64,000 bases of DNA from Thysanoteuthis rhombus (lineage: Eukaryota; Mollusca; Cephalopoda; Oegopsida; Thysanoteuthidae): the NCBI GenBank assembly GCA_963457665.1, contig OY735231.1, forward strand, positions 35,380,837 to 35,444,836. Reading direction: 5' to 3'. The notes below the pieces were generated by a model. The model did not search any database, had not been told where the DNA came from, and saw nothing but the letters and a program-made list of their open reading frames with translations. The first letter of the stretch is position 1, and each line of letters starts with the position of its first letter. Positions 1-59,443 of the stretch are shown one piece after another. The position numbers and the translations under genes are program-made.

Positions 1-1187
1 GTAACGAAAGAATGTCAGAGAAGTTTTTTTGTAAGTCTTTCATGTAGAGAGCATATCAAGATAGTGGTTGAACTTTACACGCATACACAGCATCACATCT
101 TCGAATAAAAACTGGGATTTGTTACTGGTGGTTCATTTTACCTCTATCATAATATCTTGCGTTTCACATTGTTGTAAAGTATCAATTTTTCATCGATCGT
201 CATCATTCGACTAAAAAACAGAACGTTTAGATACAATCAAATGAGTTTTATTTTTGCTTAAGTTCATGCTGAAGCCACACATCAAAGCCACTAACAAAAC
301 CAAGTTTCAACGCTTAATTTGGATATTCTGAGCATGTTGGCTATACATTGAGTATGTTGTATAATGTTAATTATTCTCAAGTAATATTTTGATTTTATTG
401 CCATCAACATCAGGTCTACTTGACTGCGTAACATCACTCGGCGAGAGATTTCCAGCACAAAACTTCTAGAATTATTCACAGTACCTTTTTCATAAATTGC
501 AACAAATCTATTCGTTTGTGTTCGGGTCGCATTTTTTAACTTTGAAGTATAACATACTCAATATTTTCTCACCTACACACTGATATGATAGTTGTCACAG
601 TACAATCGAAAACGATCTTTTTGAATAAAGTTGGTAAAACTAAACACTCCTAATACCATTTAACGACAGAAAACAGAACTAACATTTTAGTCAAACCGAT
701 CTATTGAAAAACATTTTCACCATAACAAATATTGAAAAAAATATTCTTTTTGACGATGTCTTTTATATGCTCTTTTCTTTTCTTTTTTTTCCAGCAAAAT
801 ATAGTAAATATAATTTGAAATAAAATTGAGATCAAATGCTACTTATTTGTGGTTAGAATAAGCTTTTGGATTGAAAGTTGAGTGAGTCTCTATACGACAG
901 TTACGGTTCAAAGTTTTTGGAATTCAACCATTTGTTATTTTGTCGAGGAGTCTCGCTTCCTTTTCAACCTTACTTAAAGGCCACACCAATTTGGCTAGAG
1001 GATTGAAATTTTGAAAATGTATTCCTCATTACGTATAGAAGAAAATTTTTTAAAATTTTTTGAAAATTTTAACTAAATAAGTTTTTAGTGAGGGGTTCAA
1101 TTTGCAGTATAAGTTTATTCTAAATTTCTCGCTTAGTTTGGGCCCGGCATTATTCACGCTTCTATTTATGCCTCCAAGGGGCGGCAG
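1..1187. other. No gene recognised
   Basis: AT-rich sequence with frequent stops in all frames. No splice-bounded exon, RNA gene or mobile-element protein is visible. It lies downstream of the 3' end of gene A. Confidence 0.5.
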
Positions 1188-1240
1188 AAGTAAATTATTC
1201 ATTGATCACCCCTTTTTCCAATTTCTAAATTGATCAGCCC
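1188..1240. repeat. Dispersed repeat family D, copy 1
   Basis: A block reading roughly TTATTCATTGATC, a T-rich stretch, then TTGATC recurs at about 6105, 33735 and 44425 in this window. The copies share the order of motifs but differ by many substitutions, as expected of an old interspersed repeat. Its class is not recognised. Confidence 0.45.
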
Positions 1241-1244
1241 AAAA

Positions 1245-1560
1245 TTCATCATCATCAGTCTTTTATCGTCTGTCGTTGGATATAGACCTTCCCCAGGATT
1301 CGCAACACCTCTCTATCGTGCACGTCGTGGAGCCAATATTTCTGAACCTGTCCAGTCCATCTCGCCTTCTAATATTCTGCCGACCTCGGCTCTGCATTTT
1401 ATCTCTGGGGATCCATGTCAGCTGTTTTTGCAACATATCCAGTCCATTGCCATTTGAGTTTCGTAATGGCTTCCATAAGGTCTCAAACCACTGTTTCTCC
1501 CAAATATAGAGTACTGTCTTGTGGTCTCTCCATGTGTATTTGAACATGATTCTCTCATGT
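1245..1560 (-). mobile_element. RTE-type LINE 3' fragment
   Basis: The minus strand encodes a broken C-terminal tail typical of RTE-clade (HmRTE-like) endonuclease-reverse transcriptases. Readable pieces include TWRDHKTVLYI, WIPRDKMQSRGRQNIR and SWGRSISNDRR, in two frames. The plus strand begins with the short CATCATCA tail that marks the 3' end of this family elsewhere in the window. It is 5'-truncated and frameshifted, so a dead copy. Confidence 0.75.
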
Positions 1561-3422
1561 AAACGATTTGTGAAAGAATGCCAAAATCAGATATGGCTGA
1601 CCATGTGTGAAAGGTCGAAGAGGCACACTGATTTTTATGAAGTTAAGTTGAATTAATGAACGGGGAGTAGCATTGAAGATTGAACAGGTTGGAAGAATCC
1701 GTATACATACTTTGCTCTGATGAGAATAATGGCTGATTTGATGCATGTTTCCAATTCTGATAATGTAAATACAGTAGAGATCACCTTCACAAAATGAGCA
1801 ATGATTTTTTATCCAATGACATTATCAGGAATTATAAGTTTAGACAGAGAAATGGAAACGACGCCGTGAATGACTCTTGTTATAAAATATTGATTACATA
1901 AAAGCATTTTTCAGAGTTATATCTGGAAATTATCTGATGAACTATCTACTGATGCTGAGCTATAAACTGCAGAATATCACCAACGGGTACATTTTGGTTA
2001 CTCTCAGAGGAAAAGATGTAGTAGCCCACTGTTGGTAAATTTGGGTCTTGGGAAAAGAAGGTGAATCTAGTTCACAGAAATGTGAATAAATAAAAAAAAG
2101 TACTCATGTCTATTCAAGACCGTGCTTAGATTGTTTTAATTCAATATTTTGTCGTGATGATATTTTCCATCGAAAATTACTTCGATTATGCGATGATTTA
2201 CGTCTGGCGACAGAGAAATCAAAACTCTTCAATCAAAAATCTTCCAAAAATAAAGCAGACGATATAGAAATAGGATTCGACGAAGAATAATGAATTTAAT
2301 GATCACCTAAATGAAAAAAAAAACAAAAAAAAAAAACCAAAACAAAAAAAAACTAGTAATACTCACTTTTTACTTAAGTATAGTGTAAATTTCACTGCGA
2401 GGATATCTGTTACCTGTGAAAGGTCAAGTGATGTCGCTTGAGTCATTCTCCTTTACCCCTAGGTAATGAGAGCTCATTCTGAAGCATTTCAAGGGGGAGA
2501 TGAAGCTTTTGGGAGCTTAAAATGACGTAACTTGATATTACCAACGATTGCAAAAGTATGTTTAAAATATTGAAACACTGTCAAATGCCAGGCAACACTC
2601 CAGTATAAATAATAATAGGAAACATGGCTTTTTTTAGATGAAATGGTTTTATTTGATCTAATGTATGAAAATAAGTGCAAAGTATATGAAGAAAAATATA
2701 ATCATAATGAAAATCAAGCCATGTTGACTTAGTTTTCAAACTTCTGTGAAGAGATACTTACAAAACTTGTTTATTGAGATAACTTAAAAACATGATTATT
2801 AGAAATGTGTCAACCATCAAAAAATATTTTGTATTGATAACTGGATGACTATCAGAGAAAAGCAGTTTATATCATTTGTCGTCTGCTCCATGCTGAAGAT
2901 ATTTTGATACTTTCAAATCAAATGACTGGTACACACGGGATGGTTGAGATTGGTCTCGTCTGTGTGGGTTGCTTTGCTAGGAATGAACTGAGTCGTCGGT
3001 ATATGAGCTACCATTTCCATTCACCATCTGGTTCTGTAAAAAGGAGACCTCCATCTTATCTTATGGATTGTACAGCCGAGAATGTTTTTGAATAGATCTG
3101 CTTCAGGATGGAAACGTTGCGTTAAGGAGCACAAAGAATGAATTAATTCGTCCGAACTACTCCTGGAAAGGTTTTTTTTTTCTTGCATATATAGTATATA
3201 TTCATTCGAACCTGTACATGTTTTCGATTTATGTACAGATTAATACAAGTTTATTCCATTTTTCAAAAGTTGACCGTTCCAGTAAAACATTCTGTAAGCC
3301 CAAAATGACGTGAAGCGAAATCGCAAGTACCATGATTTTATATTGTAAAATTATTTCGCTTTCTTAGACCAAAACAGCGATGACGATTCCATACTTGTTG
3401 AAGTCGTCAGATGGTGAAAGGT

Positions 3423-3426
<4 letters not shown>
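1561..3426. other. No gene recognised
   Basis: AT-rich non-coding sequence. Only short unsupported open frames occur (for example 2904-3095 plus) and none has splice sites or family features. Confidence 0.45.

Positions 3427-3464
<38 letters not shown>
3427..3464. repeat. (GA)n microsatellite
   Basis: An uninterrupted GA dinucleotide run of about 38 bases, directly readable. It lies about 300 bases beyond the stop codon of gene A. Confidence 0.95.
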
Positions 3465-3468
<4 letters not shown>

Positions 3469-3529
3469 AGAATTGTGCGTTCTGTTGTTTGTATGACTCC
3501 CCGCAAAACAAACGCTGATTGCTTTTCGC

Positions 3530-3535
3530 TTTATT
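3530..3535 (-). promoter_or_regulatory. Candidate poly(A) signal of gene A
   Basis: The minus strand reads AATAAA about 230 bases after the gene A stop codon at 3763-3765. It is the first canonical hexamer I noticed downstream. Transcript data are needed to confirm its use. Confidence 0.4.
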
Positions 3536-3762
3536 TTCCTGGAAGTGGAAAAGTTGCGCGAAGCAAATTTTCGAAAAGCGGGCTATACTTGTTCATGCAA
3601 GCCGTAAGAACCAAAATTTTGGCTCTGGACTAAATAAAAAAAAAAGATTAAAAAGAAAACACTAGAATTTGTTGTATGAAGAAATATAAAGGAAAATTCT
3701 CAGTATAGAACTTCCTACGGGATAAATTTTTTAGGAAAGTTACGGTTTTGTGATTGGCAGAA

Positions 3763-26512
<22,750 letters not shown>

Positions 26513-29356: not shown

Positions 29357-29753
29357 GGAATCTCACACCAGTTGCCTGGTGGTAACCGCTGGAGTTTGAG
29401 TGACAGCAAGTCTCCTCAAGTCTCCAGCCCTCCTCTCGTAGTACTCATAGGTCGCAGTAATTCTGCAATTTACAGTTTCACACCGGTTGCCCAGTGGTTA
29501 TCGCTGAAGGCTGAGTGACAGTAAGTCTCCTCAGGTCTTCAGCTAACGTCTCCTCTCTCTTTCGCATATCATGACAGAGCTACGATTCGTTGCAGTCCTT
29601 ATATCTCTAGCACCTTCCTCAGTATCCGTGCAGTTCCCAGCAGTGCTGTGGTTTGTACGGTCTCTATCCTCCCCCTAATCCCGATCTCCTCCAGTCTCTC
29701 CCTCAGCGTTTTGGGGACAGTTCCTAGTGCTCCCACTACGACCGGTACTACCC

Positions 29754-29756
<3 letters not shown>
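29357..29756 (-). mobile_element. R4/Dong-like LINE 3' end, 5'-truncated
   Basis: The minus strand encodes RVVPVVVGALGTVPKTLRER, then LEEIGIRGRIETVQTTALLG and TARILRKVLEI with a stop at about 29599. This is the extreme C-terminus of an R2/R4-group protein. A 3' UTR follows that is nearly identical to 28192-28400 and ends at the (TAA)n tract at 29356. The ORF is open up to (TAA)n at its 5' side. Confidence 0.8.
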
Positions 29757-29817
<61 letters not shown>

Positions 29818-29842
29818 CATTATTATTATTATTATTATTATT
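29754..29842. repeat. (ATT)n/(TAA)n microsatellite
   Basis: ATT run of nearly 90 bases with one C interruption, at the 5' truncation point of the LINE copy at 29357-29756. Confidence 0.95.
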
Positions 29843-29889
29843 AACGCTCCCTTATTCAGGGTTGAGCACTCTTTAAGTGAGGTAACTTG

Positions 29890-30157
29890 TTCATTATAAG
29901 ATTATGCAATGCTCTTCCAACTTAAGAATAGAGTACTCTGGTGGATGGGGAATTCTGCGTGAATAAATACATCGCTTGATTTCAACCTTACTGACCGTCC
30001 AGTTCTGCGTAGGGCTGAGGTAATATGCCAGTCTCTGGGTCTGAAGCGAAGGTTCCGATCCTACCTCGTGATACTTGATTGGATAATGGATCGTCTATAG
30101 CCACACTGAAGAGTTGTAATTCAACGAAACGGCTGTCTGTGGATGACAAAATTATTC

Positions 30158-30160
<3 letters not shown>
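29890..30160 (+). mobile_element. Hammerhead-bearing short repeat, copy H3 (best preserved)
   Basis: Plus-strand copy homologous to H1 and H5 in reverse orientation: TGCAATGCTCTTCC, ACTCTGGTGGATGGGG, ATCGCTTGATTTCAACCTTA, CAGTCTCTGGGTCTGAAG, then the ribozyme near its 3' end. (TA)n follows immediately. The 3' GGATGACA is shared by all copies. Confidence 0.7.
30101..30142 (+). ncRNA. Minimal type I hammerhead ribozyme, intact core (H3)
   Basis: Order on the plus strand: CCACA (30101-30105, helix I 5'), CTGAAGA (30106-30112, CUGANGA box), GTTG and CAAC forming helix II around TAATT (30113-30125), GAAA (30126-30129), C-GGCT-G (30130-30135, one-pair helix III with tetraloop), TC (30136-30137, cleavage after C of the GUC triplet), and TGTGG (30138-30142, helix I 3', 5 bp with CCACA). 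All invariant hammerhead positions that I know are present. Minimal type I hammerheads with a tiny helix III are known from Penelope-like elements and animal retrozymes. Confidence 0.8.

Positions 30161-30227
<67 letters not shown>
30161..30227. repeat. (TA)n(GT)n microsatellite
   Basis: TA run turning into a GT run directly after the hammerhead repeat. Confidence 0.95.

Positions 30228-33311: not shown

Positions 33312-33371
<60 letters not shown>
33311..33371. repeat. (CT)n(TA)n microsatellite
   Basis: CT run turning into a TA run that abuts hammerhead repeat copy H4. Confidence 0.95.
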
Positions 33372-33372
<1 letters not shown>

Positions 33373-33472
33373 TCCACAGACAGCTGTTTCGTTGTATTAC
33401 AACTCTCCTGTGTGGTTATAGACAATCCATTATCCCATCCAGTTCCACAAGGCAGGATTGAAACCCTTGGTT
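33372..33472 (-). mobile_element. Hammerhead-bearing short repeat, copy H4
   Basis: On the minus strand it ends with CCACA, CAGGAGA, a perfect GTTGT-AAT-ACAAC helix II, GAAAC-AGCT-GTC and TGTGGATGA. The CUGANGA box has two changes, so cleavage is unlikely. Bounded by (TA)n on both sides (33371 and 33473-33498). Confidence 0.65.
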
Positions 33473-40923: not shown

Positions 40924-41507
40924 CTACTGTAAAGAAGGTTTATTTTCTATATGTGCCCATCGAGGACTACAAAGCCGTTTTTCAAGCAGGAAAGGCAGGT
41001 AGGATGGTAGGGTTCCATAAGAGTAAAGGATAATGATTCGTTCTTTGGGAACAAGGACATTTTGCACACGACTTATATCGATGCCATCTCCAATAACGAC
41101 CACATAGAGTTGGATGTTTTCATAATGTGTTCGTCTAATTTGTGATATGATTCCGGGGTCATTCAGGTCGATGGTATTGTCCAAAAATAGTAATCCCACT
41201 TGACGAGCATCCCAGAATCTCCTCGGAAATATGTTTAGTTGTAGTTTTCCAAGAAGCGAGCTCAAAGAGCTATACTTGGAATCGACGATATCTTTGATTA
41301 GTTGAAATTTGTCAGTGATAGATCCAATCACAAAGTTTTTAGTGGGCAGGCAGTCATCGAAAATTATGCCATAGCTGAAAGCATTATTACTTCCAACTAC
41401 CTTTATGACTTCGGCTGACGCATTTAGAATTTGATTGGTTTTCTCTTGTCCCAAACGATTTTTACTGACCATAAATACCAAATCTGTCGACCGTGCAACA
41501 TCACAGA
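40924..41507 (-). CDS. Gene B exon 8: degenerate terminal VWA-like domain and stop
   Basis: A 584-nt terminal exon, TTTTCAG acceptor, phase 1, stop at 40924-40926. It begins VCDVARSTDLVFMVSKNRLG, with DxSxS replaced, and retains ARQVGLLFLDNTIDL. Close relative of gene A exon 7. A short hydrophilic tail (RWAHIENKPSLQ) ends the protein. Confidence 0.88.
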
Positions 41508-44500
41508 CTGAAAATTGAACGGAGAAATGGTTTTGATCATCTTACGTTATTAGAATTTTAGAGATTTAGTATTTTCATCGTAATTTTTGACGTGTCATTT
41601 CTTTTAACGTGCTTCCCATCCGTTAAAATCAGTAGCGTAAAGTCAAAATAAAGTATCCATTGAGATTTGAACACGGATTTGATTCACCAGGAGCTGTCAC
41701 AGAAATCTATAACTAGACAGGGCAAAATTCTACAGTCTTATTACCATGGCGTGTATGTCTGGTGAAACGTATTGTAGATTTGAACCCTATTTATTAATAG
41801 GTTCAGTTGGCCGAAATTTTCAATACATTATGAATGAAAAACGAGCATATTTTTCGTCAGGAGCTATTTCTCAATTCAGACTTCACGTTACTGACTTTGA
41901 CAATTGGGGAGCACTAATGCTCGATCATTGTGACAAAATAAAACAATGAAATGAAGAAAGGTAACCAATACTCAATACTTAAACGAGTGTAAATTACTGG
42001 GTAATTTGTTAATCAGTAAATGTTCATTAATTATTGATTTTATTTTGTAATAAAAGAAATCAGATGTAAAATCATTGTACAACCATTCTGATGAGGCAAT
42101 TTACAAATGTAAATGATTGAATGAAAAAGACTTGACCAAAATAGCCACGATTGCTTGTAAAATTGTAACATTATGAAGTGTTGGAGAATTCAAATTGAGG
42201 GCTTTAATGTAAACAGCAAAATATGTTTGATTTAATTTGATGTTGAGAAATTGTCGAACCTGACGGCCGGAATTCCAGAATTGAGAAGAAAGGCTCTAAA
42301 ATAAAATGAACGAAATATTGGAATGCGATCAGGGAGACTTGTAGTGAATCTGGTGATTTTACCTTCCTTCAATATTCCGTTCTGACGTAATCCCCAAAAA
42401 GAATTAACTAAGATATTTCCTATACGAAGTAAGAACCGTGTCTTACCATTTCACCGAAATGTCAGGAAGCTTTCTAACACCATTGGTTATTTAAGTTATC
42501 AAATACAAGGGAAGCCCACAAAATATTTTTAAACACCCGATAATCTTATGTAAACTTATATGATTCGTGTATACGAAAGAAGTAAACGTTACTCACCATT
42601 GAGGTTTTCTCTGTTGACTGTACAAACTTTGTAGGTCAGAAGTCCAGATTTTGAAAGAAGAATGTCATAAGTGTCGAAGGTATACACAAATTCTCTGGGC
42701 GGTTGGCTTGCAATGTCCAGCAGTTTATTCTTATCCACTTTCGGTCCGATTCCAACTACAAAGATCTTCACACCAGAATTTCGGAGCAACTTGGCCTCTG
42801 CTGAAGTCTGTTCATGATCAATTGACATCCCATCGGTGAATATAATGAGAATACGCTCTACCCTAGGGCGGCGTGAAGCATGGTTGAAGACGTATCTTAT
42901 ATAGTTAAGGGCATTGCCGGTCTTAGTTGCTCTTCCCGTCCACTTGATATTTCGAATCTTTTTCAAGGATTCTACTTTGTCCTCACCAGAGTCGAACTTC
43001 AACACGGAAATAAACTTATGATTGAATATAGACACAGCCACTCGGGTCTTTGTGCAGTTAATATCAAATTTATTAATAATGTCTTCAATGATGTGATTCT
43101 CTTTGCTGAATTCATCGATTAGTATGCTTGACGAAGAATCCAAGAGAAAAAATATATCAGCTCTCTCATTTCTGCAGGCTATAAAGAAAGAAAAAATGGA
43201 TATAAGTCATTCTTTGACAGAAATGATAGTTTATGTCAATTATTTAAACACTTAACTGATAATTTATTCGTTTCACATTAAAAGAAATGAAATTTTGTAA
43301 GTATAGTCGTTTTTGTTGTTGGTATATATTAAGCTCCAGCTAGTCTGGCAAAGGTCAAAACGGGGGTGGGGGTATAAGAGCAGTGTAGCACAAAACTTCT
43401 CAGTAAGGAGAGCCTACCTACCTACTTTGAAAATTATCATTTGATATTCTGGCCTTTTACCTGGGATCGAACTCTATCCATAGGGACCAATAGGCAATAC
43501 ACAGCTATCCCAGCCAAGAAGTGGCTGAGATAGTGTACAATTAATATGTGTATACAGAGGAAGCCACTCTTTGTGATCAGTTTGATTACGCGTGATAACA
43601 ATAAACAGCTGATAACATTCAAAAGACATAGAAATCGGAACAATTCAAATTCATTGTTATGAATTCATTCTTTTGAAATTCATCACTATTAACAAATTTA
43701 CATATTATTTTAGCAAAATTTTTATAGATATTTCTGATAATCAAGAATCAATTTTAAATAAAGATTTCGGAGTCAACTGACCATGATAACAATGACCGTT
43801 TAATTACATTATCTTCCTCTGTAGTAATATAAATGAAATAAATAGTTTGTGTAGATGAATTAATAACCTTTTTGTGCAAAATGTATATAAGATACTCTGA
43901 TAGCTTGCTTCGTTGTTGAATATTTATGCATTTCTTGCCAGTGTAAGAGGACTGCTATCAATACCTACGCAAGCCAAATTTTTGAATGATGACTTTTTTA
44001 AAAGTAGGAAGTCCACCTGGAAGACTGGCGTACTCCATATGTACTCGTGCCGTACTAAGCTGAGCTTAGGAAGTGCAGAGTTCTCCTAACGGTTAATTCA
44101 AATTCCGGCTGGAATACATTACTTTGCACTAAAGCCGTTTGGGAAAGACATCAACCTCTCTGAATTTTCCGGGTTGCTCGTACAATGTAATCGAGTACAA
44201 CCTCTCACATGTTACTTGGAGAGGAGACGGACACTGCCAAGTAAGCTCATTGAGCCTAGAAATGCCATAAACGGTCCTAGTGCCTCACCGGTCTACTGAG
44301 GATGATTTGATTTGATTTAGGAAATAAAATAAGTAAATATCATGCGAAATCTTCGGTAGAGCTAAATAGATTTATACAATTGCATTCTTCTCCCGTGGAT
44401 GAAACAACAAATTTTAGTGATCTCTGCCAAAAGTAACTTATTCATTGACCTCCCCTTTTTTCCAATCCTTTAATTGATCGCCACCCAACAAGGCATGCTA

Positions 44501-45655: not shown

Positions 45656-48600
45656 ATAGAACACTTTGCCACGTTTGATGACTACTATTCAGCGACGTAG
45701 TTTGACCAAAGAATGTTATGGATGGCGTGATCAAAGGCCTTTCTATCATATTTAGTGACACTAATCATGTAACCAAGTATGCGTTGTGAATCACATGCTC
45801 AAATTAGTACATGTCTTGGGCTGAGGTCGGTTCGTCAAGGAAACGCTTACATAAAGTTAGTATTCACTGTAACATTCATAGTCGAAGAGCATTCGCTGGA
45901 AATTTATTTCAAGTACCCAGCGATTTAAGTACCTTGCGTGGACACTGCGGCACATGTCGTTGGTGTTGTCCAAAGGATTTGAAGTAAAGAAGCCCTGTTC
46001 GTTGTCCAACCCAGTCGATATGATAGAAATAAAAATCGTCCCTCGTCTGAACATGATTCGGGAAAAGAAAGCCTCGTCCCTTTTTCGGCGTAGACGATTT
46101 GAAATATGTAAACTTTGTCTCTTTTTTTCGAAATTGACTATTTGAAATAATGAAGCCTTGTTTAAACTAAACAATAAGTAAATTTTGCCTCTTGTTCGAA
46201 CTTGATAACTCGAGATAAGGAAGCTTATTCCTTTTTTAATCTCTCCCAATCAACATTTCTAATAAAGCGAAAGCTATCGACCATACAGCATTGAATGGCG
46301 TTTTTTCTTCCTGCTCCATTAAAGAGGCTTTAAATTTTTTTATATCTTTATGTAGTTGCACTACCAACCGACAAAATTAATCTTTTTCCCCCGTGGTACC
46401 GTATATAATTAATTTTAAAAATTCGTCCAGTTCCATTGAGTATGTACTTTAAATTTGGTTGAGCGAATCAGACTTTAAGTATCACATAAAAATTGATGGA
46501 AATCAGATCATTAATATGGAGGTTAGAACCAACAAGGACCCCACATTTTTAGTGAAAGGAGAATTTATATTTGAAATTTGCACCCATGTTCAACCTAACT
46601 GAGGGCTACTCGTACTGTTTAAGGCACTGGGTAGAGTCAAATGATTAGAAAAGTGGTTTAACCGGACATCATCTAGATTACATTCACCCTCGGTCCAAAG
46701 AGCATTTAGCTTACTAGAACACCCCATGCTCACAATTGAACTTCAATGAAACCTACTTGTGTGACAAGTCTGATGAACAACTTTATCCCTGATTTGGTCC
46801 AAGGTTCTATAACTAGGGGCATGGAAGACGAATTTATCTTTAGGCTCGCTGGCAATTCCTCTCAATTCGGAGAAGTTGATAGAATGTCCGATTCCGATGG
46901 CAAAAAGTTGGATGTTTGAATCTCGGCAAGCTTTGGCCGCCACCTGAGTTGCTTCTTTGTCTGTTGAGGCGCCGTCTGTTAGAATAATGGCCAATTGTTT
47001 CACTCCAGGTCTCGAGCCCTTTTCTGGTTTAAACATGGTTTCCTTCAGTTGATTGAGAGCATCTGCAGTATTGGTATTTCCAAGCAGTCGGCTAATTCGA
47101 CTGATTTTCGATTTTAATGTTTCTTTGTCAACCGATTCGTACAAGTCAATCTTCACATGAGCTGAGCTGCTGAAGATTTCAACTCCTATTCTCACCTAAA
47201 GTAAATGAGGAAAAAACAAACAAATCAATAGTTACAAATCATAAACAACACGTAATGATAACTGAATATTTTTAATTTTCCCAACACGGATATTTCAACA
47301 ACGATATCTGAATGTGAACATTAAAACATTAAACTATCTAATACGAAAATATAAAAGAAAATTCCCTTGGAGACTCTATAATCGCTGCAGACATCATGTA
47401 ACGTCTAATATTCATTGAAGTGGAATATGAGGTATTGTTTCATGTCATAAGTATGAAAGCGAAAGAAACACAAGGTCAGTCGATAGACATATGAAGCAAA
47501 AAAGAAAACGGAATAAAACAATTGTAATAGAATAATCAATCGATAGCAATTACCTCCCTTGTTTATGGAGGCTACTTTTTCTATCAGAGATCGTCAATTA
47601 AGTAATTTCATAGTTTACTCACCTGCTCAGGGTCCATACCAATGTCAAGTTTGTCAACCATGAACGTGACAAAACGTAATTGTTTTTGGAAATGTGGCCC
47701 CCAGATACTGGACGAAGAATCCAGAACAAACACAATGTCCGCCGGAAGTCCCAAACATTCTAATTTTGGTTTTACTGAAAGGTTTGAAAAGAAAAGAAAA
47801 TTCTTGTAACGAAGTATCACTGAAAATTTTGGTACTTTTCTATTTTGGTAGTTTTCTAACTAGTTCCGAATAACTGTCACAGAGAACATTATAGAAATAA
47901 AAATAATTCATAGTGGATGGAATGCATTTGTTTAAAACGTTATAATTGCATTGAAATCACATTTCAAGAAATATATCCTTTAGACTCGGTTGAAGATAAG
48001 AAATTATTATTGAAGCACAGATTTGACAAGGAAAGCATCAATAAATTAAGCCTGATTAAAGAGTGTAATAAGAATTAAATGATAATGATAGAAATAATCT
48101 GATGTGAACATTCAAATCCATTACATATAATGAACGCTAGCAGGAAAGATTAGGATTATCTTGGTGATCATGCTTATAAGACGTCAGTCATGAATTGTTT
48201 TTTGTTTCGATATGTTTTACTCGTTAATCCGAATGGAGGAATTCACGGATATATTTGAATTGGGATGTCTCTTTCGTTCTTTTTTCAAATAAATACCGAA
48301 TTCGTTTACTGGGAGTACTGCATAGTTTGAAAAGGTGCACAGAAAGACATTTTTCGGCAAAATTTTATCCCTTTTCCCCACTAGAAGTGTTCTGTGTTAT
48401 GACCCACTAGCCAAGAAAATGAGAGTGTCCATTATTAGGGAAATAAATGTAGAATCGAAATCGGCTGAATTAAAAAGATTGACAGCATTGCTGGGTCTGC
48501 AAGGATACTGAGAGAGGTGCTGGAGACTTCAAAAGACTTGATGTCACTCAATATTCAAAGTAGTTTGAAAAGGTGCACAGAAAGACATTTTTCGGCAAAA

Positions 48601-51327
48601 TTTTACCCCTTTTTCCTACAAGAAGAGTTCTGTGTTATGACCCACAAGCCAAGAAAATGAGAGTGTCCATTATTAGGGAAAATAATTGTTGAATCGAGAT
48701 CGGCTGAATCAAAAAGATCGACAGCATTGCTGGGTCTGCAAGGATACTGAGAGAGGTGCTGGAGACTTCAAGAGACTTGATGTCACTCAATATTCAAAGT
48801 AAACCCCTTGACAGCTCGTATGGGCATACACATGCTTTGATGATAGAATTAATCATGATAACAATACCCAGATCTTTCCAGAGAACTAAAATAAAGAGTG
48901 AGATATGAAGGCAACATATCTTACCATTATTGGTTCCGTTCGGAACCCTCCCGTAGAACGCTGGAAAGAATTGAAAAATTGGGGAAATCGGGATTCTCAT
49001 GAAGATTTGGAAGGATTGAAAGTCGGAAGAAGAAGAGACGACATTTAGACGAGAGCATTACTAAATCAGCAAGAATATATTGAATATACTTGCTGTAACT
49101 TGTTTTCCTGTGAAAGCTGTTTGATATGGTTCATGTAAACACTACAAATAAATATTGATAAAAGCATGACGTTGAGGCCCCCGGGATAATGCTATTTTTG
49201 TCACTATTAATAATATCATATCAATCTACCAGAAAATAGACAATGATAAAAATGTAAGTATACACTTTATTCCATGGTATACTTACACTTACTGCTGCTG
49301 GTTCGCGTGAGGAACCCCTGTAAAATAATAACAATAATAAAAAAAAAATAATAATGATAAAAATGATAATGATAATAATAACATTAATGATATTAATAAC
49401 AATAATAATGATAATAATGATGATAACAATCTTAACAATGATAATAACAATAGTAATGATAATAATAATTATAATAATAGTAATAATGATAATAGGAATA
49501 ATAATGATGGAATCGAACTCTTGGACAGCAAAAATATTAGAGCATTGACCACTAAAGACTGAAACAAATACAAGGAAGTATTCGAATGTAACGCAATAAA
49601 ACGGGAAAAAATGAAAGAGAAAATAAAAAGAGGATTCTCTAGGAGGATAACGAAAACATTAAAGACCATGCAAAATAACAGGAATCTGATAAAAAGGAAT
49701 TAACACATGGGCTGTATCGATAGTTAGATACTCATGACTATTCCTTACATGGTCACAGGAAGAAAGCTTATGAAAATGCACAAGGCCCTACACCCCAGCG
49801 ATGACACGGATAGACTGTATGTGAAGGGAAAAGATAGCAGCAGAGGACTTATCAGCATAGAAGGTCTAGAAATAACAAAAACGGAGAAAACAATGGAGCT
49901 GCATTGCAAATAAGGAAAGAAAATTGGGAAAAGAAAAAAACTGTACGAGGAATTCACAAGACGGAAACTAAATGTTGCAGGTGGGAGATCATGAATATGG
50001 CTACGAAAAGGAAACTTGAAGAGAGAAACGGATTTGCTCATCATGGCAGCCCAAAACAAATGCATTAGGACAAACTATATCAAAACAAAAATCGACAGAA
50101 TACAGACAAACTGCAAATGTTGCTTATGTGGGAAAAAGGATGAAAACATGAATCACATAACTAGTGAATGTAGTCAACTCGCCCAGAAGGAGTATAAGCA
50201 CAGACACGATAGAGTAACAGCAATGATACACTGGGAACTGAGAAAACGAATGGGAATCGACCATACGGAAAAGTGGTACCAGCACAAACCGGAGACAGCC
50301 CTGGAGAATGGAAGTCACAAATTACACTGGGACTTTGACATCCAAACGGACCACCTCATCCAAACGAGAATACAGGACTTGGTAATCGTAAACAAGAAGA
50401 AGAAAACATGCGAAAATAAAGTAGACGTGCTCGTGCCAGCAGACCAGAGAGTAAATAGGAATGAAAAGATGGGAAAAATACCTGGACCTGGGAAATGAGC
50501 AGAAAAAGGTGTGTAACATGAAACTCAGAGTAGTACTAGTAATAATAGGTGCACTCTGGACGGCACTATAGATACTGAAGGCCATATTGGAGGCACTAGG
50601 AGTAAAAAGAAGGATAAAGACTGTACAGACCACAGCACTGCTAAGAACTGCAAGAGTGCCGAGGAAAGAGCTAGAAACATAAGACCTACGACCCCAGTTG
50701 TTAGCGATGGTCTAACAGGGGAAAAATGGAAAAAAAACCCTCTCTCTCCTCAAAAAACCCAAAACAACCCACGCACACACACACAAATGGTGATGGAAGT
50801 GCGAACCGATGCACTTTGTCATAGGTTAGGGAGAGATTAGAGGAGGGCTGAAGACCTGAGGAAACTCACTGTCACAGCCTTCAGTGATAACCACCGAAAA
50901 ACTGGTGTGAAACTGTAAACCACAGCCCTGCTGTGGACTGAGAATGTGGAGACGAGGGCTAAAAATCTTCAGCCCTGGAAAATGGGAGTCATACATTACT
51001 CTAGGACTTGGACATTCAAACTGGCCACCTATCCGAGAGAGAAGACTGGACTTAGTAATCGTAGACAAAAAGAGGAAAACATTATCTTTATATATATATA
51101 TGGATATTGTGTCATCCACAGATAGCTATTTCCATGTATCACATCTCTAGACTTTCAATTATCCCATCAAGTACCACGAGAATTGAAACCTTCACTTCAG
51201 ACCCGGAGGCCGATATCCTACCTCTGGACTACGGAACTGGACAGTCAGTAAGGCTGAATTTAAGCGATATATCATTTACACACAGAAATTCCTCATCCAA
51301 CAGAGTGCACAATTCCTATGAAAGAGC

Positions 51328-51420
<93 letters not shown>

Positions 51421-56958: not shown

Positions 56959-59443
56959 ATATAGATGCACATTGCATTTTATATACGTTGATAATAGAGA
57001 TGTGCATTGAAATGAGCTAGGACAATAGCTCTCAATACACATTGCATTTTATACACGTGTGTGTTGGAGATTTGCATTGTAGTGAGCTTGGACAATAGCT
57101 TTGTATGCACATTACATTTTATATATGTGGATAATAATGATTTGCATTAAAGTGAGCTTGGAGAATATAGCTTTTAAATCATATTGTATTTTATACACGT
57201 GTGTGTTGGAGATTTGCATTGTAGTGAGCTTGGACAATAACTTTGTATGCACATTACATTTTATATATGTGGATAATAATGATTTGCATTAAAGTGAGCT
57301 TGGAGAATATAGCTTTCAAATCATATTGTATTTTATACACGTGTGTGTTGGAGATTTGCATTGTAGTGAGCTTGGACAATAGCTTTGTATGCACATTACA
57401 TTTTATATATGTGGATAATAATGATTTGCATTAAAGTGAGCTTGGAGAATATAGCTTTCAAATCATATTGTATTTTATACACGTGTGTGTTGGAGATTTG
57501 CATTGTAGTGAGCTTGGACAATAGCTTTGTATGCACATTACATTCTATATATGTGGATAATAATGATTTGCATTAAAGTGAGCTTGGAGAATATAGCTTT
57601 CAAATCATATTGTATTTTATACACGTGTGTGTTGGAGATTTGCATTGTAGTGAGCTTGGACAATAGCTTTGTATGCACATTACATTTTATATATGTGGAT
57701 AATAGAGATTTGCATTAAAGTGAGCTTGGAGAATATAGCTTTTAAATCATATTGTATTTTATACACGTGTGTGTTGGAGATTTGCATTGTAGTGAGCTTG
57801 GACGATAGCTTTGTATGCACATTACATTTTATATATGTGGATAATAATGATTTGCATTAAAGTGAGCTTGGAGAATATAGCTTTCAAATCATATTGTATT
57901 TTATACACGTGTGTGTTGGAGATTTGCATTGTAGTGAGCTTGGACAATAGCTTTGTATGCACATTACATTTTATATATGTGGATAATAATGATTTGCATT
58001 AAAGTGAGCTTGGAGAATATAGCTTTCAAATCATATTGTATTTTATACACGTGTGTGTTGGAGATTTGCATTGTAGTGAGCTTGGACAATAGCTTTGTAT
58101 GCACATTACATTTTATATATGTGGATAATAATGATTTGCATTAAAGTGAGCTTGGAGAATATAGCTTTCAAATCATATTGTATTTTATACACGTGTGTGT
58201 TGGAGATTTGCATTGTAGTGAGCTTGGACAATAGCTTTGTATGCACATTACATTCTATATATGTGGATAATAATGATTTGCATTAAAGTGAGCTTGGAGA
58301 ATATAGCTTTCAAATCATATTGTATTTTATACACGTGTGTGTTGGAGATTTGCATTGTAGTGAGCTTGGACAATAGCTTTGTATGCACATTACATTTTAT
58401 ATATGTGGATAATAATGATTTGCATTAAAGTGAGCTTGGAGAATATAGCTTTTAAATCATATTGTATTTTATACACGTGTGTGTTGGAGATTTGCATTGT
58501 AGTGAGCTTGGACGATAGCTTTGTATGCACATTACATTTTATATATGTGGATAATAATGATTTGCATTAAAGTGAGCTTGGAGAATATAGCTTTCAAATC
58601 ATATTGTATTTTATACACGTGTGTGTTGGAGATTTGCATTGTAGTGAGCTTGGACAATAGCTTTGTATGCACATTACATTTTATATATGTGGATAATAAT
58701 GATTTGCATTAAAGTGAGCTTGGAGAATATAGCTTTCAAATCATATTGTATTTTATACACGTGTGTGTTGGAGATTTGCATTGTAGTGAGCTTGGACAAT
58801 AGCTTTGTATGCACATTACATTTTATATATGTGGATAATAATGATTTGCATTAAAGTGAGCTTGGAGAATATAGCTTTCAAATCATATTGTATTTTATAC
58901 ACGTGTGTGTTGGAGATTTGCATTGTAGTGAGCTTGGACAATAGCTTTGTATGCACATTACATTTTATATATGTGGATAATAATGATTTGCATTAAAGTG
59001 AGCTTGGAGAATATAGCTTTCAAATCATATTGTATTTTATACACGTGTGTGTTGGAGATTTGCATTGTAGTGAGCTTGGACAATAGCTTTGTATGCACAT
59101 TACATTTTATATATGTGGATAATAATGATTTGCATTAAAGTGAGCTTGGAGAATATAGCTTTCAAATCATATTGTATTTTATACACGTGTGTGTTGGAGA
59201 TTTGCATTGTAGTGAGCTTGGACAATAGCTTTGTATGCACATTACATTTTATATATGTGGATAATAATGATTTGCATTAAAGTGAGCTTGGAGAATATAG
59301 CTTTCAAATCATATTGTATTTTATACACGTGTGTGTTGGAGATTTGCATTGTAGTGAGCTTGGACAATAGCTATGTATGCACATTGCAGTTGATGTACGT
59401 GGATAACAGAGATTTGCATCATAATGAGCTTGGCCAATAGCTC
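56959..59443 (+). repeat. 142-bp satellite built of two 71-bp halves, each with an octamer motif
   Basis: Seventeen 142-bp units plus a final half unit. Sixteen units from 57101 are spaced exactly 142 apart with almost no substitutions; the first unit and the last half are diverged edge copies. Each unit is a dimer of a half with GTATGCACATTACATTTTAT and a half with ATCATATTGTATTTTATACA, sharing ATTTGCAT and AGTGAGCTTGGA. The unit length is not a multiple of three, so the 63-aa frames it contains cannot form a continuous repeat protein. Confidence 0.97.

Follow-up and report, generated by a model that had tools for sequence, protein, structure and literature searches.

A type I hammerhead ribozyme in a dispersed retrozyme-like element of the squid Thysanoteuthis rhombus

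A type I hammerhead ribozyme was identified in a 64,000-nucleotide stretch of the Thysanoteuthis rhombus genome (contig OY735231.1, positions 35,380,837 to 35,444,836; hereafter, the window), near the 3' end of a dispersed element of about 330 bp. The hammerhead is genuine, with a conserved fold. The element is retrozyme-like, and most of its testable features match those of animal retrozymes. The conserved fold pattern, the structure of the copies, their target site, and a co-resident Penelope-like element were observed, and they are best explained if the hammerhead processes the RNA of a non-autonomous, retrozyme-type retroelement, which would spread via circular or multimeric RNA with a Penelope-like enzyme. 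We assign this reading a probability of roughly two in three.

Structure and conservation of the hammerhead

Direct reading confirmed to the base what an earlier note on this DNA had reported at 30101-30142, namely a hammerhead in type I order with an intact core and a GTC triplet, and the adjacent (TA)n tract was found to begin at 30161 (Table 1). The GAAA strand is followed by C GGCT G T C, the last C being 30137, and then by TGTGG (30138-30142), and the type I core CUGANGA...GAAA...UH occurs with three helices in type I order. The limits drawn in the note were too short, as helix I extends outward to a second pairing, separated from the inner helix by internal loop 1 (TATAG at 30096-30100 and AT at 30143-30144). 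Because this outer helix I and loops 1 and 2 are present, as they are in the majority sequences of all three subfamilies, the hammerhead is a full type I form. Thus, the description of the hammerhead as type I, of the animal retrozyme kind, and with a helix III suggesting dimer action was retained, and the description as minimal was not.

Table 1. Coordinates of the hammerhead parts, element copies, and Penelope-like copy in the window
Feature	Position	Strand	Basis or detail
Type I hammerhead ribozyme	30101-30142	+	Direct sequence reading, structural search, Rfam, subfamily comparison
Helix I, CCACA/TGTGG	30101-30105/30138-30142	+	Sequence read
Core strands CTGAAGA, GAAA	30106-30112, 30126-30129	+	Sequence read
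Helix II GTTG/CAAC, loop TAATT between	30113-30116/30122-30125	+	Sequence read
Helix III octamer ACGGCTGT	30129-30136	+	1-2 pairs intramolecular, 8 pairs intermolecular
Predicted self-cleavage site, after C30137	30137-30138	+	Predicted from the hammerhead fold
Outer helix I GTC/GAC	30093-30095 with 30145-30147	+	Commonest pair combinations in all three subfamilies
Post-cut tail up to (TA)n junction	30138-30163	+	Putative start of reverse transcription
Full-length element copy, subfamily 1	29831-30163	+	93% identity with the 30-copy majority sequence
Copy truncated at the 5' end, flanked by (TA)n tracts	33370-33465	-	Core CTGAAGA reads CAGGAGA
Subfamily 3 copy	23947-24176	-	Hammerhead 23957-23998; helix II GATG/CATC; C-to-T change at the first core base
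Subfamily 3-like copy with partial hammerhead deletion	25011-25172	-	(TA)n on both sides
Subfamily 3-like copy, decayed hammerhead	51106-51330	-	(TA)n on 5' side and near 3' side
Penelope-like copy in (TA)n, 5'-truncated (by eye)	18318-19693	+	GIY-YIG frame 18478-19209

A strict structural search (5-bp helix I, CTGANGA, 4-bp helix II, GAAA, helix III of at least one pair, and UH, with G-U pairs allowed) returned this single site on both strands of the window and none in 300 dinucleotide shuffles, and a looser pattern gave four matches in the window against 1.05 expected. A chance motif is ruled out by the empty shuffles together with the many related copies genome-wide. In the covariance-model check proposed in the earlier note, no Rfam family reached its gathering score within the window, and an Rfam search of 4501 bases at E ≤ 10 did not list RF00163. 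For an 81-base piece of the window copy, RF00163 gave a weak match of 22.7 bits (E 7.7e-4), under the curated gathering cut-off of 34, and another copy (L020) scored 21.6 bits; the low score probably reflects the short helix III. A subfamily 2 copy elsewhere in the genome (L001) exceeded the cut-off with 35.6 bits and was the sole match in a genome search in which 73 of 299496 candidates were scored. Rfam matches to SCARNA7, mir-297, and others over TA and TG tracts were taken as low-complexity matches.

The fold was compared in 95 copies of subfamilies 1 (56 copies), 2 (19), and 3 (20), with three copies of more than 12 mismatches (L012, L114, and L115) and three duplicates (L041, L058, and L130) left out. 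Helix II reads GTTG/CAAC in subfamily 1, GTCG/CGAC in subfamily 2, and GATG/CATC in subfamily 3. Its second pair is T-A in 52 of 56 subfamily 1 copies vs A-T in 19 of 20 subfamily 3 copies, and its third pair is T-A in 55 of 56 subfamily 1 copies vs C-G in 15 of 19 subfamily 2 copies, both of which are compensatory double changes. The subfamily queries contained the hammerhead and so favoured query-like copies. The pairs counted here therefore lack independence, and what they record is two double-change events, each passed on to many copies. No covariation between subfamilies was found in helix I. The three majority sequences are identical in the loop TAATA, the core strands, helix I, the outer GTC/GAC, and the octamer ACAGCTGT, and the outer pairs G-C, T-A, and C-G are the commonest combinations in each subfamily. 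A fully intact core was found in 57 of the 95 copies (34/56, 10/19, and 13/20 for subfamilies 1, 2, and 3), and helix I was weakest in subfamily 2, in which pair I-3 was formed in 11 of 19 copies. Small internal deletions within the hammerhead were observed in L139, L143, L151, L154, and the window copy at 25011-25172, as if it were loss-prone.

In the family form, helix III consists of a single C-G pair and the core A-U, capped by the palindromic AGCU. The family octamer is self-complementary, forming one or two pairs within a molecule and eight between two molecules, with a calculated self-duplex energy of -11.1 kcal/mol (-9.7 kcal/mol for the window form). This form of helix III suggests that the predicted ribozyme acts as a dimer. 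The window hammerhead differs from the majority sequence at two positions, A to T in loop II (UAAUU in place of the UAAUA of the three majority sequences) and A to G in the octamer; both changes are compatible with the fold, and neither disrupts the core, helices I and II, or the cleavage triplet, all of which are intact. By nearest-neighbour folding, which ignores tertiary contacts and Mg2+, the best predicted fold of the window monomer was -14.3 vs -6.2 kcal/mol for the hammerhead, and that of the dimer was -32.8 vs -26.9 kcal/mol for the double hammerhead; the predicted best folds of the three majority sequences were likewise non-hammerhead. Within this model, such lowest-energy folds count against easy cleavage. 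Folded as a circle, the unit of one multi-unit locus (L065) was predicted to be only slightly more stable than its own shuffles (z -2.06).

The dispersed element and the ends of its copies

A (TTA)n tract precedes the full-length copy, and a (TA)n tract follows it. From 30 fetched copies, the unit begins at about ATTAACGCTCCC and terminates past the hammerhead in ACACAATTATTTAAT(TA)n. Searching the assembly (2.73 Gb, 514 contigs) with 29840-30160 gave 43 matches, 40 of them scored, and the 39 other copies among these best 40 of 8449 first-look candidates genome-wide were 88-91% identical. Four further copies or remnants lie in the window, all on the minus strand. Very roughly, the genome holds on the order of 10^5 copies: two insertions (L033 and L036, one of which carries two hammerheads) in six 10-kb stretches at round coordinates, 60 kb in all, give an estimate of about 9x10^4 genome-wide, with a Poisson range of about 10^4 to 3x10^5. 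CpG decay is evident in the element body, where 96 of 539 CpG bases were changed (18%) vs 419 of 7282 others (5.8%); because the copies are the best matches to the window, these figures do not date the whole family.

No protein frame of at least 90 aa lies inside the 333-bp copy, and the frames overlapping it (29525-29896 and 29602-29901) are mostly the isoleucine run of (TTA)n. The reverse transcriptase and GIY-YIG frame that marks Penelope-like elements is absent from the 333-bp element. The GC content is 0.42 in the majority sequence and 0.40 in the L065 unit. Successive hammerheads are 303-328 bp apart in L005, L014, L017, L024, L033, L042, and L065 and 365 bp apart in L063.

Copy ends were read in set A of the element loci, which is biased to full-length copies, and in a hammerhead-anchored set (27 distinct loci of 30 fetched and 40 listed), whose query includes 19 nt of tail and favours tail-bearing copies; combined, these gave 57 loci of 60 after the removal of three second-set duplicates of the first set. 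Among the 27 hammerhead-anchored loci, 16 were 5'-truncated at scattered places, six were full, and five ran into a second unit; the 5' ends were scattered along the unit, some lying beyond its start. The 3' alignment ended at consensus 322-334 in 26 of the 27 loci (the exception being L056). As the predicted cut falls after consensus 307 and the query ends at 334, the distance from the cut to these 3' ends is 15-27 nt or slightly more. By eye only, a post-cut hairpin TGTG/CACA was noted as a candidate enzyme recognition site.

A (TA)4 or longer tract was present within 80 nt downstream in 49 of the 57 loci (background 5.9%), within 60 nt upstream in 25 (background 4.8%), and on both sides in 23. 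More than one unit was found in nine of the 57 loci, a count that includes L049, which may be rearranged, and omits L064, which has 22 nt of a second unit; the remainder hold one unit or less. At the four unit joints read (L005, L014, L017, and L065), the upstream unit was incomplete within the aligned stretch and no (TA)n was present; thus, (TA)n appears to be the target site rather than a component of the unit.

A body-anchored set comprised 20 of 40 listed copies, the previously unfetched ones in list order. The AT-rich tail past the cut was reached in 18 of these, with the cut joint itself present in 16 and deleted in two (L143 and L154). Of the other two, L136 ended at most a few bases from the predicted cut, which is where a copy of a cut RNA template would end, and L152 stopped earlier than the cut. 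The tail-spanning copies could not have been templated by a linear cut monomer but could have come from circular, multimeric, or uncut RNA.

Other repeats and frames were noted in the window and the fetched loci. A satellite array at 56965-59433 holds 17.4 copies of a 142-bp unit (97% alike), and a tandem duplication at 48323-48801 has a 239-bp unit (94% alike). On the minus strand, an exon-like frame at 12718-13278 matched the von Willebrand factor A domain (PF00092, E 1.6e-24), and frames resembling it by eye only lie at 9241-9783, 42592-43206, and 46746-47195; Pfam gave no match for the minus-strand frames 3766-4332 and 40927-41541. Positions 2705-2825 of L024 matched 5S rRNA with 40.7 bits (cut-off 38), possibly as a 5S-derived repeat. 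In the assembly, the hemocyanin domain PF14830, which is molluscan, gave 52 matches, as against none in 14 control genomes. One hemocyanin exon scored 531 bits (best domain) against 6r83, which we take to be squid hemocyanin, and 328 and 313 bits against the other two aligned sequences. These hemocyanin results strongly support a molluscan source and make a squid-like cephalopod probable.

The Penelope-like element and the proposed mechanism

The GIY-YIG frame of the Penelope-like copy in the window was identified at E 5.2e-5, and this copy retains a decayed minimal hammerhead at about 19588-19623. A genome search scored 150 matches of 12774 candidates, 16 of which have stop-free frames of at least 798 aa. 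The stop-free frame of one of them (L068) matched reverse transcriptase (E 1.1e-13) and, with 19.9 bits, fell just under the GIY-YIG cut-off of 22.6; its positions 1-3601 contain an 828-aa open frame with an apparent inverted piece of the same element ahead (by eye). At the 3' ends of the first 20 of 149 listed matches, the window's own excepted, the minimal hammerhead CCACTGATGATGGGA(A/G)(A/G)AATCCCGAAACATGTATGG was found with at most three mismatches in 19 (not in L076). In 18, an 82-87-nt tail separates it from (TA)n, with the ending ACACATT...TATATA; L077 has the hammerhead and no (TA)n. The minimal hammerhead of this genome is that of the Penelope-like element and not the one at 30101-30142. 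Lunse et al. reportedly described Penelope-like elements with minimal hammerheads in 2017.

Six fetched Penelope-like 5' regions contained no upstream hammerhead or tail. The tail of the window's Penelope-like copy is open for 24 codons; the idea that it opens the frame of the following unit was rejected, as later copies have stops (by eye) and the six 5' regions are tail-less. Between the element and the Penelope-like 3' sequence, only (TA)n and a short ACACA were seen in common. A LINE-like copy at 22620-23202, a single copy named by eye and without a Pfam match, ends in (TGA)n, not (TA)n. The Penelope-like element is favoured as the putative helper because of the shared (TA)n end and because Penelope-like reverse transcription in vitro starts inside the template and cuts AT-rich DNA (PMC11167929).

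In the retrozyme explanation, cleavage, circles, and the enzyme are the parts that we infer. Multimeric or read-through transcripts would be cut at C30137, with pairing of two hammerheads via the self-complementary helix III octamer giving the most efficient cleavage, and a host ligase would close the unit as a circle. Reverse transcription, probably by the enzyme of the co-resident Penelope-like element, would be primed from a nick in genomic (TA)n and begin 15-27 nt downstream of the cut, at a narrow spot within the AT-rich stretch. An early stop would leave 5'-truncated copies, a stop after one lap at the AT-rich stretch would leave full monomers, and more than one lap would give multi-unit copies. 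Against this explanation, single or truncated copies prevail among the 57 loci, in contrast to the tandem repeats described for published animal retrozymes, and uncut multimeric RNA accounts for the copies as well as circles do. The non-hammerhead best folds, the copies with a broken core, the end of L136 near the cut, and the six Penelope-like 5' regions lacking an upstream hammerhead or tail also weigh against it.

It is unlikely, though worth weighing, that the template was such uncut multimeric RNA, a route proposed for Penelope-like elements, with the hammerhead acting elsewhere, for example in transcript trimming, and circles arising as a by-product. The copies span the cut, as the body-anchored set documents, and the Anolis PAc element was inserted in vitro without need for a ribozyme (PMC11167929). 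However, mostly single-unit loci mean that multimeric transcripts would need a source, and a ribozyme maintained via compensatory changes is probably important for spread. An ordinary SINE, in which a LINE enzyme would copy a linear Pol III transcript and the hammerhead would be carried along, is improbable. Dispersed copies of about 330 bp that are often 5'-truncated, and a mid-element segment resembling tRNA by eye (TAGGGCAGAGG...GGTTTCGATCC), fit this origin, but no tRNA match to the element was obtained (Rfam, 10 loci at E ≤ 1; ARAGORN, 30 loci; one copy at E ≤ 10), and the single tRNA found (L011) lies outside the element. As Rfam and ARAGORN found no tRNA-related head on the element in these loci, a tRNA-derived SINE was rejected; the multi-unit loci, the 5' ends beyond the unit start, the compensatory helix II changes, and the (TGA)n end of the LINE-like copy also argue against SINE mobilization.

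A narrower form of the retrozyme explanation, which we hold tentatively, takes the retrozyme as a circular-RNA passenger of the resident Penelope-like element with a ribozyme that is dimer-dependent by design. The enzyme would nick (TA)n and start inside the circle at the post-cut AT-rich stretch, giving 'one-lap' copies; owing to ACAGCUGU, self-complementary and kept in three subfamilies, multimers would cut themselves and the monomeric circle would stay intact. If true, this would answer why animal retrozyme circles do not open themselves, a block whose mechanism is left unexplained in PMC7229834. The odds are about even that the window copy itself is an inert fossil, that is, a true family member that neither is transcribed nor cleaves. 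Its two differences from the majority hammerhead, the non-hammerhead predicted folds, and the loss of a core base in 22 of 56 subfamily 1 copies speak for this; its intact core, helices I and II, and triplet, with both changes fold-compatible, speak against it.

Comparison with known systems

Metazoan non-LTR retrozymes give RNAs of 170-400 nt with a GC content below 45-50% (Cervera and de la Pena 2020, PMC7229834). The squid element resembles them, as described there, in its type I hammerhead, its short unit (about 330 bp, with hammerheads 303-365 bp apart in eight loci) that has no long frame, its low GC, its many copies, the multi-unit copies at nine of the 57 loci, and the hammerhead-bearing Penelope-like elements in the same genome. 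It differs from those descriptions in being mostly dispersed as single or 5'-truncated copies without predominating tandem arrays and in that its copies sit in (TA)n and end at almost the same point past the cut. Retrozymes seem promoterless, and the animal repeats are described as having no motif that identifies a helper (PMC7761336); a Penelope-like helper was proposed from co-occurrence and shared type I hammerheads (PMC7229834). The (TA)n target and the layout (hammerhead, tail, (TA)n) that the element shares with one Penelope-like element with long open frames name a concrete candidate helper.

The element is like Penelope-like elements in having a hammerhead near its 3' end, a post-cut tail, and an AT-rich target, and for one such element hammerhead cleavage was not required for insertion in vitro (PMC11167929). 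Unlike Penelope-like elements with minimal hammerheads, it showed no protein frame and carries a non-minimal hammerhead.

The giant squid (Architeuthis) genome was reported to contain 235 hammerhead 1 ribozymes, which were classed as cis-regulatory elements with no retroelement named in the available text (PMC6962438), and squid and cuttlefish genomes were reported to contain almost no SINEs (PMC13218726). No description of a cephalopod retrozyme was found among the papers listed in a search of the open-access literature, and the words 'hammerhead' and 'retrozyme' are absent from the main text of an octopus repeat paper (PMC13282606) and of the cuttlefish genome paper (PMC13218726). The present element suggests that small retrozyme-type elements may go unclassified in squid and cuttlefish genomes.

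Unlike the squid form, invertebrate hammerheads are reported to have a mostly stable helix III (PMC7761336). The squid form resembles the amphibian HHR_Amex1, or newt satellite, hammerhead, which has a 1-bp helix III, a palindromic tetraloop, and loops 1 and 2 and is reported to work best as a dimer (PMC7229834); the hosts belong to different phyla, and the likeness rests on helix and loop layout, not on body or loop sequence. What is new in the present case is the host, the copies that lie in (TA)n mostly as single units, the proposed link to the resident Penelope-like element, and a helix III of dimer style, which places an amphibian-type hammerhead in a mollusc.
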